From Thermosipho africanus Ob7 (GTDB taxonomy: Bacteria > Thermotogota > Thermotogae > Thermotogales > Fervidobacteriaceae), in contig NZ_NKRG01000002.1 of assembly GCF_003351105.1 (NCBI RefSeq), forward strand, positions 1-64,000: DNA of 64,000 nt. The letters are read 5' to 3'. The notes beneath the pieces are model-generated. The model saw only the letters and a list, made by a program, of their open reading frames with translations, was not told the DNA's origin and did not search any database. This document shows, one piece after another, positions 47,076 through 51,994 of the stretch (position 1 is the first letter of the stretch; each line of letters begins with the position of its first letter). The position numbers and the translations under genes were made by a program.

Positions 47076-47171
47076 TTACTTGAGAAAGAAAAAAACATAA
47101 AGGATATGATAGCTCGTTTATGGGGATAGAATGTGAAAAAAATCGTTAATACAGATCTAAGGAGGGATATG

Positions 47172-48923
47172 ATGGCAAAAATTTTTTTGAATGGAAAGGA
47201 GTATGAAGTTCCAGATAATTTGACCGTATTAGAGGCAGCCCAGAAACTTGGTATGGAAATCCCAACTTTGTGTCATCATCCAGAGCTAGAGCCAATAGGA
47301 GCTTGTAGAGTTTGTGTCGTAGAAATCGAGGGTGCTAGAACACTTCAACCTGCATGTACAACCAAAGTATATGACGGAATTAAAATAAATACGAATTCTG
47401 AAAGAGTAGAAAATGCTGTAAAGTTTAATTTATCACTTATAATGGCAAATCACCCAAACGATTGTATGTATTGTGAAGCGGATCAAAGATGTGAACTAAA
47501 AAGGCTTGTTCAAAAATATAATATTAGACCTGTATTTAAAGTCTCGGACCTTCCAGATGTATTTGATGATAGCAGTCCTTCAATCCAAAGAGATCTTTCT
47601 AGATGTATAAAATGCCAAAGATGTGTAAGAGTTTGTAGTGAAATTCAAGGAATGAATATCTACTCCATGATCGAAAGAGGTTATAAAACCATTCCTCAAA
47701 CTGCATTTGATATGCCTGTCTATGAAACTAACTGTATTTCATGCGGACAATGTGCATACCTTTGTCCAGTTGGCGCAATTTATGAAACTCCCGATTGGAG
47801 AAAAGTACTTAAAATATTAGATAAAAAGGATAACAAAATTTTAGTCGCCCAAACAGCTCCTTCAGTAAGAGTTGCAATAGGTGAAGAATTTGGTATGGAA
47901 CCAGGTTCAGTAAGTACAGGTAAGATGGTTGCTGCAATTCGAAGATTGGGATTTGATTATGTTTTCGATACAAACTTTGCTGCTGACTTGACAATTATGG
48001 AAGAAGGCACAGAACTTATTGGAAGAATAAAAGATGGTGGGCCATTTCCAATGTTTACAAGTTGTTGTCCAGGTTGGATCAATTTGTTAGAAAAAGAATA
48101 TCCTGAATTTATCAACAATGCTTCAAGTGCGAAATCTCCTCAACAAATGATGAGTCCTATTGTTAAAACATACTTTGCTAAAAAGATTGGGGTAGATCCA
48201 GAAGATATAATTATGGTATCTATTATGCCATGTACTGCAAAGAAAGATGAAATTACAAGGCCACAACAAAAGATAAAATTAGAAGATGGAAGAGAAATTA
48301 AAACAACAGATTATGTTATTACAACAAGAGAACTTGCAAAACTTATAAAGATGAAACAAATTAACTTTATTGGGCTTGATGATGAAGACTTTGATAATCC
48401 ACTTGGAACTTCTACTGGTGCCGGTGCAATTTTTGGCGTTACTGGTGGGGTTATGGAAGCTGCTCTTAGAACCGCTTATGAACTTATTACAAACAAAAAA
48501 TTACCAAAACTTGAATTCAATGCAGTAAGAGGATTAGATGGTATTAGAGAAACCGAAATTGATATAGAAGGTAAAAAATTAAAAGTTGCAATTGCACATG
48601 GAACTGCAAACGTAAAAAAACTTCTAGACGATATAAGAGACGGAGTAAGATATTATGACTTTATTGAAATAATGGCATGTCCTGGTGGATGTATAGGTGG
48701 TGGTGGACAACCAAAGAGCCTAGATCCAGATATTCTCAAAAAGCGTGCTTCGGCAATCTACTCAATTGACGAACTTAGTACACTTAGAAGATCACATGAA
48801 AATCCAGATATTCAAAAGCTTTATGAAGAATTTCTTGAAAAACCAAATAGCCATATTGCTCACGAATTACTACACACTTACTATACAGATAGATCAGTTA
48901 AAAATAAAGTAGTTACAGAATAA
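47172..48923 (+). CDS. [FeFe]-hydrogenase catalytic subunit, monomeric modular type
   Basis: A 583-residue protein. An N-terminal [2Fe-2S] ferredoxin domain has PTLCHHPELEPIGACRVC. A His-ligated [4Fe-4S] motif (HPNDCMYCEADQRC) follows, then two [4Fe-4S] motifs (CIKCQRCVRVC, CISCGQCAYLCPVG). The H-cluster domain has complete L1 TSCCPGW, L2 MPCTAKKDE and L3 MACPGGCIGGGGQP. All H-cluster Cys and the proton-relay Cys are present, so it should be an active H2-producing or H2-consuming enzyme. ATG at 47172 has GGAGG six bases upstream. No HydB/HydC subunit genes are adjacent. Confidence 0.94.
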   Translation: MAKIFLNGKEYEVPDNLTVLEAAQKLGMEIPTLCHHPELEPIGACRVCVVEIEGARTLQPACTTKVYDGIKINTNSERVENAVKFNLSLIMANHPNDCMYCEADQRCELKRLVQKYNIRPVFKVSDLPDVFDDSSPSIQRDLSRCIKCQRCVRVCSEIQGMNIYSMIERGYKTIPQTAFDMPVYETNCISCGQCAYLCPVGAIYETPDWRKVLKILDKKDNKILVAQTAPSVRVAIGEEFGMEPGSVSTGKMVAAIRRLGFDYVFDTNFAADLTIMEEGTELIGRIKDGGPFPMFTSCCPGWINLLEKEYPEFINNASSAKSPQQMMSPIVKTYFAKKIGVDPEDIIMVSIMPCTAKKDEITRPQQKIKLEDGREIKTTDYVITTRELAKLIKMKQINFIGLDDEDFDNPLGTSTGAGAIFGVTGGVMEAALRTAYELITNKKLPKLEFNAVRGLDGIRETEIDIEGKKLKVAIAHGTANVKKLLDDIRDGVRYYDFIEIMACPGGCIGGGGQPKSLDPDILKKRASAIYSIDELSTLRRSHENPDIQKLYEEFLEKPNSHIAHELLHTYYTDRSVKNKVVTE

Positions 48924-48960
48924 GGTCCTTTAAAAGCTTTTAAAAATTAAATAAAATATT

Positions 48961-49081
48961 CCTTTCTGAGGTTGAGGGAAGTTTATCCTGACACCAAGGA
49001 AAGGGGAAAAAGCTAGAAAATGCTAATAATGCATTAATTTTCCCCTTTCCTTGGAAAATAAAAAGGAAAGGGGATTTTTAT
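48961..49081 (+). ncRNA. Structured leader RNA with mutually exclusive pairings ahead of the hyd maturation genes
   Basis: CCAAGGAAAGGGGAAAA (48994-49010) and TTTTCCCCTTTCCTTGG (49038-49054) form a perfect 17-pair stem. Within its 27-base loop, ATGC/GCAT (49020-49023 with 49031-49034) can pair. The 3' arm (CCCCTTTCC, 49042-49050) can instead pair over 10 bp with GGAAAGGGGA at 49065-49074, which is the ribosome binding site of the gene at 49082. CCTTTC at 48961-48966 could pair with the 5' arm. There is no U-run after either stem, so this is not a simple terminator. It matches no riboswitch class I recognise. Confidence 0.6.
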
Positions 49082-49330
49082 ATGGAAAGGTTTTATACAG
49101 TAGACATTATTGTTACAAATAGAGACGATGCATATGAAAAAGTGAATCAAATTTTACATGATTTTTCAAGGTATATTAAACTTAGAGTTGGATATCCAAT
49201 AGAAAGCGAAAATATGGCAGTAATCTTTGTCCTCTTTAAAGCTACAAACGACATATTGGGAAGTTTTACTGGAAAATTAGGACAAATAAAAAATGTGAAA
49301 GTAAAAAGTATTCCAATTACAAAGGGGTGA
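49082..49330 (+). CDS. TM1266-family protein, putative hydrogenase-system regulator
   Basis: An 82-residue protein with an ACT-like alternating beta/alpha pattern (RFYTVDIIVTNRDDAYEKVN… then IFVLFKATNDILGSFTGKLG). Homologues are named after Thermotoga TM1266 and lie beside [FeFe]-hydrogenase maturation genes. Function is unproven. Its ribosome binding site, GGAAAGGGG eight bases before the ATG, is the alternative-pairing element of the leader RNA. It is followed by hydG after four bases. Confidence 0.85.
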   Translation: MERFYTVDIIVTNRDDAYEKVNQILHDFSRYIKLRVGYPIESENMAVIFVLFKATNDILGSFTGKLGQIKNVKVKSIPITKG

Positions 49331-49334
49331 AAGT

Positions 49335-50750
49335 ATGTATGTGTTTATTAAAGAAAAAGATACACAAAAAACTTTTATCGATGAAAAAAAGATAAAAGAA
49401 AATCTATCCTCAAATCTTAATCCAGATAGTGAAAAAATACGCAATATATTACAAAAATCTCTCAATAAACAAAGACTTGATCCAGATGAAGTTGCTACTC
49501 TTTTGAATGCAAAAGATGAAAAGCAATGGGAGGAAATATTTGAGGCAGCAAGAACTTTAAAGGAAAAAGTATATGGTAACAGAATAGTTTTGTTTGCACC
49601 ACTATACATTGGAAATGATTGTATCAATGATTGTGAATATTGTGGTTTTAGAATATCAAATAAAGAGGTTGTAAGGAAAACACTTTCCTTTGAAAAATTG
49701 AAAGAAGAAGTAAAAGCACTAGTTTCAAAAGGCCACAAACGCTTAATTGTAGTATATGGAGAACATCCAAAATATTCCCCTGAATTTATAGCTAAAACAA
49801 TTGATATTATTTATAATACCAAACATGGTAACGGCGAAATTAGAAGAGTAAATGTTAATGCTGCTCCTCAAACTGTTGAAGGATATAAAATCATAAAAGA
49901 GGTGGGAATAGGTACATACCAGATCTTTCAAGAAACCTATCACTATCCAACATACAAAAAGCTCCACCCTCGCGGCCCAAAATCCAATTTTGCATGGAGG
50001 CTATATGGGCTTGACAGGGCAATGCTTGCTGGAATAGATGATGTTGGAATAGGTGCTTTATTTGGACTATATGATTGGAAATTTGAAGTAATGGGATTAA
50101 TATATCACACCTTACATCTTGAAGAACGCTTTGGAGTAGGACCACACACAATTTCATTCCCAAGAATAGAGCCAGCAGTTGGAACACCTATAGCCGAAAG
50201 ACCTCCTTATCAAGTTAGTGATGAAGATTTTAAAAAATTAGTTGCCGTTCTAAGACTTGCTGTTCCATATACTGGTTTAATTTTAACAGCAAGAGAACCG
50301 GCAGATCTCAGAAGGGAAGTTTTAAAACTTGGTGTATCTCAAATTGATGCAGGATCTAGCATAGGTGTTGGTTCATATTCTGAAACTGATCCAGAGGTGA
50401 TAAGAAAGAGTCAGTTTATCTTAGGAGATACACGAACACTTGATGAGGTGATTTACGAACTTCTAAAAGAAGAGTATATACCTTCTTTCTGTACTGCTTG
50501 TTATAGAGCAGGAAGAACAGGAGAACACTTTATGGAATTTGCAATTCCCGGATTTGTCAAAAGATTTTGTACCCCCAACGCTCTTTTTACATTGAATGAG
50601 TACTTAAATGATTACGCTTCTGAAAAGACTTATAAGGAAGGAAAAAAAGTTTTGGAGAAAGAAATTAAAAAAATAGATGAAAAGCAGAAAAAGATTGTTT
50701 TAGATGGTTTAGAAAGAATAAACAAGGGGGACCGAGATGTCAGATTGTAA
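49335..50750 (+). CDS. hydG: [FeFe]-hydrogenase maturase HydG, tyrosine lyase
   Basis: A 471-residue radical-SAM enzyme. It cleaves tyrosine to supply CO and CN- for the H-cluster diiron site. CINDCEYC (CX3CX2C) binds the SAM cluster. FCTACYRAGRTGEHF and GFVKRFCTP supply the C-terminal Cys for the dangler-iron cluster. AAAGGGG precedes the ATG. It overlaps the next small gene by 14 bases. It is divergent from ThiH by its C-terminal Cys motif. Confidence 0.95.
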   Translation: MYVFIKEKDTQKTFIDEKKIKENLSSNLNPDSEKIRNILQKSLNKQRLDPDEVATLLNAKDEKQWEEIFEAARTLKEKVYGNRIVLFAPLYIGNDCINDCEYCGFRISNKEVVRKTLSFEKLKEEVKALVSKGHKRLIVVYGEHPKYSPEFIAKTIDIIYNTKHGNGEIRRVNVNAAPQTVEGYKIIKEVGIGTYQIFQETYHYPTYKKLHPRGPKSNFAWRLYGLDRAMLAGIDDVGIGALFGLYDWKFEVMGLIYHTLHLEERFGVGPHTISFPRIEPAVGTPIAERPPYQVSDEDFKKLVAVLRLAVPYTGLILTAREPADLRREVLKLGVSQIDAGSSIGVGSYSETDPEVIRKSQFILGDTRTLDEVIYELLKEEYIPSFCTACYRAGRTGEHFMEFAIPGFVKRFCTPNALFTLNEYLNDYASEKTYKEGKKVLEKEIKKIDEKQKKIVLDGLERINKGDRDVRL

Positions 50751-50985
50751 TTTAAAGAGCATCTTAGAAAAAATTGCAAGAAAGTATAATTGCAAAATTT
50801 GGATCAACAAAAAAATAGGCCGTAGAATATCTTTTATAGAAAAGGCAGGGAATGAATATTATTTACCACCAATGGTGGTATATGAAGATGATAAATTTAT
50901 AATTTTTGTCGAGAATTTAAAAAGAAGTGATGAAGAATTTAAAAAGCTTATTCAAGAGGTGGTTGATTGTGCACGAAATAATTAA
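50737..50985 (+). CDS. Small protein of unknown function between hydG and hydE
   Basis: An 82-residue protein not recognised. It has a mixed alpha/beta pattern (LEKIARKYNCKIWINKKIG, then VVYEDDKFIIFVENLKR) and two well separated Cys near 4 and 18 plus one near the end. A good GGGGG site precedes its ATG. It overlaps hydG by 14 bases and hydE by 17, so it is translated within the maturation operon. A chaperone-like or regulatory role in H-cluster maturation is only a guess from position. Confidence 0.75.
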   Translation: MSDCNLKSILEKIARKYNCKIWINKKIGRRISFIEKAGNEYYLPPMVVYEDDKFIIFVENLKRSDEEFKKLIQEVVDCARNN

Positions 50986-51994
50986 GAAATTAAGAAAAGA
51001 CTCTCTTACCATTGAAGAACTTGCGCATATAATTGAAAATGAGAAATATGATGAAGAGATATTAAATTATGCAAATGAAATTAGAGAAAAATATGTTGGA
51101 AATGAAGTTCATGTCAGGGCAATTATTGAATTTTCAAATTATTGCCGTATGGATTGTTTATATTGCGGTCTGAGGGCTCCAAATAAAAATATTAAAAGAT
51201 ATAGAATGAAAATTGATGAAATAATTGACAGGGCAAAATTAATTGCTGAAAGAGGCATAAAAACTGTTGTATTGCAATCCGGTGAGGATACATATTATAC
51301 AAAGGAAATTATGTCTAATTTAATAAAAGAAATAAAAAAGTTCGATGTTGCAATAACTTTAAGTATCGGTGAAAGAGAGTTTGATGAATATAAGGCATGG
51401 AAAGAAGCAGGAGCAGATAGATACTTAATGAGACACGAAACTGCAGATGAAGCGTTATACAATAAACTCCATCCAAGTGATACTTTTGAAAATAGAAAAA
51501 GACACTTGTTTAAATTAAAAGAATTAGGTTACGAAGTAGGAGCAGGATGTATGGTTGGGCTTCCCGGGCAGGGGCCCATTGAACTTGCAAAAGATCTTAT
51601 TTTTTTAAGAGATCTAGATTCAGATATGATAGGAATTGGTCCTTTTATACCAAATCCAGATACACCATTGAAAGACGAAAAAGGCGGTGATCTAAAGACA
51701 ACGTTAAAAATCATAGCTCTTGCACGAATTTTAATCCCAACAGCAAATATTCCGGCAACTACTGCAATGGGAAGCTTGCATCCTTTTGGAAGACAATTAG
51801 CATTAAAATATGGGGCTAATGTAATTATGCCAAACTTAACTCCAAATCCATATAGACCAAATTATACATTATATCCAAATAAGATATGCTTATTTGAAGC
51901 AGATACAAGTTGTATTGAATGTACAAGAGCAATGATAAAAAGTTTAAATAGGGAAGTTGGAAAAAGCTATGGATTTAGGGTTAAAGCATCATAG
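50969..51994 (+). CDS. hydE: [FeFe]-hydrogenase maturase HydE
   Basis: A 341-residue radical-SAM enzyme needed to make the bridging dithiolate. NYCRMDCLYCGLR (CX3CX2C) binds the SAM cluster. VLQSGEDTYYT, GCMVGLPGQ and the C-terminal CLFEADTSCIECT are present. The GTG start (50969) has AGAGGTGG about seven bases upstream; a longer open frame from 50927 has no site. hydF is not in the window. The 3' end overlaps the convergent amidohydrolase by 28 bases. Confidence 0.94.
   Translation: MHEIIKKLRKDSLTIEELAHIIENEKYDEEILNYANEIREKYVGNEVHVRAIIEFSNYCRMDCLYCGLRAPNKNIKRYRMKIDEIIDRAKLIAERGIKTVVLQSGEDTYYTKEIMSNLIKEIKKFDVAITLSIGEREFDEYKAWKEAGADRYLMRHETADEALYNKLHPSDTFENRKRHLFKLKELGYEVGAGCMVGLPGQGPIELAKDLIFLRDLDSDMIGIGPFIPNPDTPLKDEKGGDLKTTLKIIALARILIPTANIPATTAMGSLHPFGRQLALKYGANVIMPNLTPNPYRPNYTLYPNKICLFEADTSCIECTRAMIKSLNREVGKSYGFRVKAS

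Follow-up and report, generated by a model that had tools for sequence, protein, structure and literature searches.

A conserved leader RNA element upstream of [FeFe]-hydrogenase maturation genes in Thermotogota, and its proposed link to the TM1266-like protein

Genes and leader of the maturation operon

The window, by which we mean the whole 64,000-nucleotide stretch of Thermosipho africanus Ob7 DNA that was analysed, carries a hydrogenase subunit gene followed by genes for H-cluster maturation. The protein-coding features and the profiles or comparisons that identify them are as follows:

47133..48923, + strand, HydA-type [FeFe] hydrogenase subunit, upstream of the element (NF040763/TIGR02512)
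49082..49330, + strand, TM1266-like protein, 82 aa, a candidate regulator with the NikR-C/ACT fold (TIGR03959, PF21699, 2NZC)
49335..50750, + strand, HydG, H-cluster radical SAM maturase (TIGR03955)
50737..50985, + strand, conserved 82-aa ORF between hydG and hydE, without a family match (profile searches, locus comparison)
50972..51994, + strand, HydE, H-cluster radical SAM maturase (TIGR03956)

The TM1266-like protein of the window exceeds the curated cut-offs of both of its families (102.3 versus 60.8 bits for TIGR03959 and 92.6 versus 27 for PF21699). The fold of TM1266 is that of the NikR C-terminal/ACT sensor domain (AlphaFold pLDDT 97, the best matches including 2NZC and NikR, with a TM-score to NikR of ~0.82); the sequence match to NikR_C (PF08753) is marginal (E 0.08). 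Domains of this kind form dimers or tetramers that detect metals or small metabolites. Since the protein consists of the NikR-C/ACT fold only, it has no DNA-binding domain, unlike NikR, in which the same fold is accompanied by a ribbon-helix-helix DNA-binding domain. To our knowledge, no target has been identified for the TM1266 family, which is entered in databases as a ‘putative regulator’ and for which a structure has been solved (2NZC, the Thermotoga maritima protein); likewise, little is known of the means by which bacteria adjust the making of the H-cluster to demand. The ORF in the hydG-hydE interval (~80-95 aa) overlaps both genes, has no Pfam or NCBIfam match, and follows the maturases through the phylum, in Coprothermobacter, and in the genomes G221 and G228 outside the phylum.

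The leader preceding the TM1266-like gene contains the following features:

48958..49009, + strand, sensor element, an imperfect hairpin and putative anti-antiterminator (covariance model match E 3.9e-13, covariation, fold)
48961..48966, + strand, 5' strand CCUUUC of the sensor closing stem, partner 48999-49004 (sequence; columns 5-50 and 6-49 covary)
48966..48977, + strand, half-motif 1, CUGA-GGUU-GAGG (alignments)
48988..48999, + strand, half-motif 2, CUGA-CACC-AAGG (alignments)
48994..49010, + strand, 5' arm of the 17-bp antiterminator, overlapping the sensor 3' strand (sequence, folding, null models; same pairing in 51/55 attenuators)
49038..49054, + strand, 3' arm of the antiterminator, overlapping the terminator 5' arm (sequence, folding, null models)
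49041..49074, + strand, terminator-like and Shine-Dalgarno-sequestering hairpin, 12 bp with a 10-nt loop (stem scan, folding)
49064..49073, + strand, Shine-Dalgarno region AGGAAAGGGG, within the terminator 3' arm (sequence)
49075..49081, + strand, U-run UUUUUAU after the terminator stem, ending at the start codon (sequence)

Within positions 48924-49100 we confirmed the perfect 17-bp inverted repeat described in the initial annotation (arms 48994-49010 and 49038-49054). It is the longest repeat of its kind in the window, and repeats of at least 17 bp did not appear in any of 60 trials with first-order Markov null sequences. The alternative pairing of its 3' arm with the Shine-Dalgarno sequence, which had been put at 10 bp, also exists, but it spans 12 bp: 49041-49052 pairs with 49063-49074, and the 5' arm of this stem is shared with the antiterminator. 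The same annotation stated that neither stem has a U-run, which proved wrong, as AUUUUUAU (49074-49081) directly follows the second stem, giving it the appearance of an intrinsic terminator. A strict terminator scan (loops of up to 8 nt) missed this stem, the loop of which is 10 nt.

The leader folds with a z-score of -3.2 relative to dinucleotide shuffles. In the lowest-energy fold, CCUUUC at 48961-48966, proposed earlier as a third element that could release the repeat arm, pairs with GAAAGG at 48999-49004 and closes an imperfect hairpin (48959-49005) that had not been described; the 5' arm of the repeat is therefore the 3' strand of this upstream hairpin. The two competing end states differ little in energy (-43.4 and -42.2 kcal/mol, ~1 kcal/mol apart); folding energies were computed at 37 °C, not at the growth temperature. 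Folding of truncated leaders gave the sensor hairpin, then the antiterminator at 49054, and then the sensor together with the terminator at 49075. The best explanation of these observations is a three-state attenuator composed of a sensor hairpin, a 17-bp antiterminator and a 12-bp terminator; the order in which these form and the direction in which they control expression are inferences.

The conserved sensor element and its expression platforms

Comparison with the leaders of relatives, which the initial annotation had suggested as a check by covariation, revealed a conserved covarying stem, but the conserved part is the upstream hairpin, glimpsed previously only as CCTTTC, with the consensus CUUUC-UGA-GGUG-RAGG-(variable loop)-CUGA-CACC-RAG-GAAAG. 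The same stem was returned by RNAalifold from a structure-blind MAFFT sequence alignment of 25 leaders, in which both-sided changes occur at 8 of 14 pairs and the covariation score was matched by none of 500 shuffles. With 67 members, both-sided changes were found at 10 of 14 pairs, 91.5% of the cells were paired, and 144 double-change cells were counted versus 56 expected; the covariation was 0.403, compared with 0.209 in shuffled and at most 0.147 in slid controls. The inner four pairs vary (GGUG/CACC, GAUG/CAUC, GGCU/GGCC, GGUC/GACC, and the palindrome GAUC/GAUC in locus L089). We read the alignment as two facing copies of CUGA-NNNN-RAGG with complementary NNNN; the element would then be an RNA duplex of pseudo-two-fold symmetry, interrupted by two UGA/RAG internal loops and capped by a variable terminal loop. 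A conserved sensor domain with covarying structure, a general criterion for riboswitches, is thus present in the element. Conservation and covariation support the earlier suggestion that the maturation operon is governed by a cis-acting leader RNA of no recognised class whose helices compete.

The element had been assigned to no described class, and the Rfam searches of the window and of the relatives' loci bear this out: in Rfam 15 there was no match at or near a gathering threshold in the element of the window, of 15 relatives' loci or of 12 loci outside the phylum, and permissive E-values yielded only matches at the level of chance. The model of the PyrR binding site (RF00515) is not met by the window (26.2 bits versus a threshold of 54, E 0.19), nor is its criterion of lying in the leader of pyrimidine genes, since the element precedes H-cluster maturation genes. 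In the literature on riboswitches and RNA motifs near HydG, TM1266, hydrogenase maturation and Thermotoga, the element was not found to be reported, within a coverage that was incomplete and left out most subscription papers. Because of the absence of an Rfam 15 match and of any report in that incomplete literature, we regard the element as a new regulatory RNA family that uses a known kind of mechanism.

A terminator-like stem lies 3' of the element in 58 of 70 cases, and T-rich tails follow the same stem in relatives. In 48 of these 58 the pairing between the element and the terminator arm has a z-score below -3 relative to shuffled letters, and when folded without the terminator 3' arm, 51 of the 55 leaders tested form at least 8 antiterminator pairs. 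Most members favour the OFF fold by ~6 kcal/mol, so that switching would have to be kinetic. The leaders therefore have both a platform that is mutually exclusive with the sensor, as in riboswitches, and a sensor hairpin acting as an anti-antiterminator, as in protein-responsive attenuators. Where the terminator is clearly separated from a Shine-Dalgarno sequence further downstream, as at L011, L017, L031 and L033, it must act by attenuating transcription; where the terminator stem also masks the Shine-Dalgarno sequence, as in the window and its near relatives, control at both the transcriptional and the translational level is possible. Purely translational control in this clade is ruled out by the many relatives in which the terminator, with a T-rich tail, is far upstream of the Shine-Dalgarno sequence.

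The inference of translational control in the initial annotation thus does not hold for the common antiterminator/terminator platform, but another family and other phyla do have versions that work by Shine-Dalgarno occlusion alone. In the Thermotogota family f8 the final RAGG of the element is itself the Shine-Dalgarno sequence, the start codon following within a few nucleotides, and it serves likewise in three genomes outside the phylum (G221, G148 and G228); most of these versions have no antiterminator. We conclude that two platforms predominate, one based on an antiterminator and a terminator and the other on direct occlusion of the Shine-Dalgarno sequence, with the common logic that the folded sensor hairpin corresponds to OFF, a direction that is inferred. 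A further arrangement was seen in one family (L085, L087, L095 and L146), where the Shine-Dalgarno sequence of the element serves a short upstream ORF (13-34 codons); at least three of these ORFs enter or cross a terminator-like hairpin before hydG, which suggests translation-coupled attenuation as a third platform. At four other loci of this family (L100, L116, L118 and L127) the first TM1266 codons form a very stable hairpin within the coding sequence.

Distribution, regulon and co-occurrence with TM1266

The covariance model located the element in 61 (first model) or 64 (second model) of 103 Thermotogota genomes, and also in a Coprothermobacter MAG. When 390 relatives were searched genome-wide, it was found in two genomes outside the phylum, a count that depends on the model having been trained almost solely on Thermotogota. 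Most genomes carry one copy and some carry two. Among 70 elements, 69 directly precede TM1266, hydG, hydE, hydF or hydA; second copies precede hydF-aspA, and in L031 and L033 the element stands before hydA with TM1266 further downstream in the same stretch. The RNA family is nearly universal among Thermotogota with [FeFe]-hydrogenase maturases and is absent from Rfam 15. It offers TM1266 a concrete candidate target and regulon, comprising TM1266, hydG, hydE, hydF-aspA and hydA.

The sole exception among the 70 is a copy in L092 (4928-4980) between hydA and an ABC transporter operon, which may be either a relic or an extra target. In L222 (G030:C38:17876-17921) a copy is followed at once by unrelated sequence, perhaps because an insertion separated it from hydF. 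Covariance model matches with E > 0.007 (L223, L225, L226 and L227) sit at unrelated places and represent the noise level.

HydG is encoded in 70 Thermotogota genomes, 65 of which also have TM1266. The second model detected the element in 64 of these 65 (G029, G032 and G101 being confirmed), and all 64 element-bearing Thermotogota genomes have both HydG and TM1266; G023 possesses TM1266 and hydG, yet no element was detected in it. In the five Thermotogota genomes with HydG and without TM1266 (G066-G070) the element was not found even with filters off (0/5), while G071, a congener, has both TM1266 and the element. The five genomes belong to one genus and probably reflect a single loss, and the co-occurrence is partly confounded by shared ancestry. 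At the loci of the TM1266-less genus (L139-L143), a sequence resembling the 3' end of a tRNA or tmRNA occupies the place of the element before hydG.

Outside the phylum, the two genome-wide matches lie 77 and 46 nt upstream of TM1266, and three more with E <=0.005 (G148, G228 and G380) emerged when the regions preceding outgroup TM1266 genes were searched with greater sensitivity. The hydG leaders of control genomes with HydG and without TM1266 gave 0 of 40 (best score 13.9 bits), and the difference between these and the TM1266 leaders outside the phylum was significant (Fisher p 0.006). Every good match outside the phylum sits just upstream of TM1266. The presence of TM1266 wherever the element occurs, as would be required of a protein-responsive attenuator, was thus observed in 64 of 64 Thermotogota genomes and for the good outside matches. 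In eight genomes (G027-G030, G038-G040 and G101) TM1266 is in trans and nevertheless retained. The tie to the TM1266-like protein that had been raised as a possibility is supported by this co-occurrence, with no binding data.

Inspection by eye of further TM1266 leaders outside the phylum (L158, L173, L160, L174, L167 and L168) revealed other hairpins, with CUGA/AGG pieces near apparent promoters; these are possibly diverged forms of the same element. Many outside-phylum genomes were missed by a simple hand-made descriptor of the symmetric motif, which proved too strict (6/23 versus 0/30). Most Thermotogota genomes also encode a second, weak TM1266-like paralogue that falls below the family cut-off (e.g. 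G000:C9:35272-35490).

Proposed mechanism and alternative explanations

The reading that we favour, with a probability of roughly 0.58, is that a new conserved RNA element forms the basis of a cis-acting attenuator in the leader and that the hairpin of this element is bound by TM1266, probably in a ligand-gated manner, with the effect of repressing H-cluster maturation. The computational support covers the element, its covariation, the alternative helices, the regulon and the co-occurrence; binding, factor, ligand and direction are inferred, and there are no binding or expression data. According to this model, the sensor element would fold first on the nascent RNA. In the ON state the downstream arm would take over the 3' strand of the element to form the 17-bp antiterminator, leaving the terminator 3' arm and the Shine-Dalgarno sequence free, whereas in the OFF state a factor would keep the element folded and the downstream arm would form the terminator/Shine-Dalgarno hairpin. 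In the families where the 3' strand of the element is itself the Shine-Dalgarno sequence, holding the element folded would block translation directly. The most likely factor would be TM1266, which would contact the pseudo-symmetric hairpin in oligomeric form and so autoregulate and coordinate the maturation set of TM1266, HydG, HydE, HydF and sometimes HydA. TM1266 binding is the leading hypothesis because of the two-fold RNA site, the normally oligomeric fold, the strict co-occurrence and the autoregulatory gene order. That TM1266 is not strikingly basic counts against this hypothesis.

The proposed layout resembles that of the PyrR-controlled pyr attenuators (RF00515), in which a sensor hairpin serves as an anti-antiterminator and is followed by an antiterminator and a terminator; there, the operon is switched off when the product of one of its own genes keeps the first hairpin folded, as proposed here for TM1266. 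The pathway and the conserved loops differ, however, and PyrR has a phosphoribosyltransferase fold, not the NikR-C/ACT fold. OFF-type transcriptional riboswitches (e.g. purine and SAM-I) are similar in that a conserved sensor precedes mutually exclusive antiterminator and terminator helices, and direct Shine-Dalgarno occlusion is found in other clades. They are dissimilar in having a multi-helix pocket in place of a pseudo-symmetric stem; moreover, the present element is strictly associated with a protein of sensor fold, and no ligand has been shown.

The main rival, which we consider unlikely without dismissing it, is that the element is a true riboswitch that binds a small molecule or ion directly (for example an H-cluster precursor, a product of tyrosine, iron or another metabolite), TM1266 being merely one of the regulated genes. 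The near-invariant UGA/RAG loop nucleotides, the covarying stem and the variable terminal loop are aptamer-like, the two expression platforms are standard ones, and aptamers of about this size exist. An aptamer would, however, need no partner protein, and the element is never found in a genome without TM1266, even when TM1266 is outside the operon, and vanishes together with it in one genus; the pseudo-two-fold symmetry suits an oligomeric protein at least as well. It is also conceivable, albeit rather improbable, that another protein, such as a general RNA-binding regulator, binds the element and that TM1266 is only a modulator or a bystander. That the element is confined to genes of H-cluster maturation, and to genomes in which TM1266 is present, speaks against such a regulator, as does the failure to meet the PyrR family model, although protein-bound anti-antiterminators of the PyrR type with this layout are generally known. 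A GGA-rich strand overlapping the Shine-Dalgarno sequence could suit a CsrA-like protein; CsrA prefers GGA in loops, and as the GGA motifs of the element sit in stems, this candidate is disfavoured.

We give very little credence to the absence of any RNA switch, that is, to an unregulated intrinsic terminator combined with chance inverted repeats, or to a DNA operator. The leader is AT-rich, and promoter-like matches occur in it at chance frequency, so the transcript start is unproven; nevertheless, the null models yield no such repeat, and the mutually exclusive pairing is kept in 51 of 55 leaders. A DNA operator is further disfavoured because the compensatory changes flank conserved loops that are not complementary, which fits a folded single strand and not a DNA palindrome.

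Extending the favoured reading, in which TM1266 binds the hairpin, we put forward a more tentative generalisation that we hold at somewhat less than even odds: TM1266 would found a new class of regulators that bind RNA, consist of the NikR-C/ACT sensor domain alone, recognise a pseudo-two-fold hairpin, are gated by a cofactor-related ligand or metal, and set H-cluster maturation by attenuation or translation block in several phyla. In Thermotoga neapolitana under CO2, a ‘hydrogenase system regulator’, HydG and HydE were up 6.0-, 6.4- and 7.5-fold, respectively, with HydF up only 1.3-fold and the hydrogenase subunits little changed (PMC7039931). The 6.0-7.5-fold rises indicate that the operon is strongly regulated. 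A copy of the element also precedes hydF in all seven genomes of group g13, apparently Thermotoga, and we infer from these apparent genus mates (the genus itself being inferred from closeness to the 2NZC protein) that T. neapolitana carries both copies. The flat HydF response then speaks against a single signal that affects the two copies alike, since a factor with equal action on both would predict co-induction.
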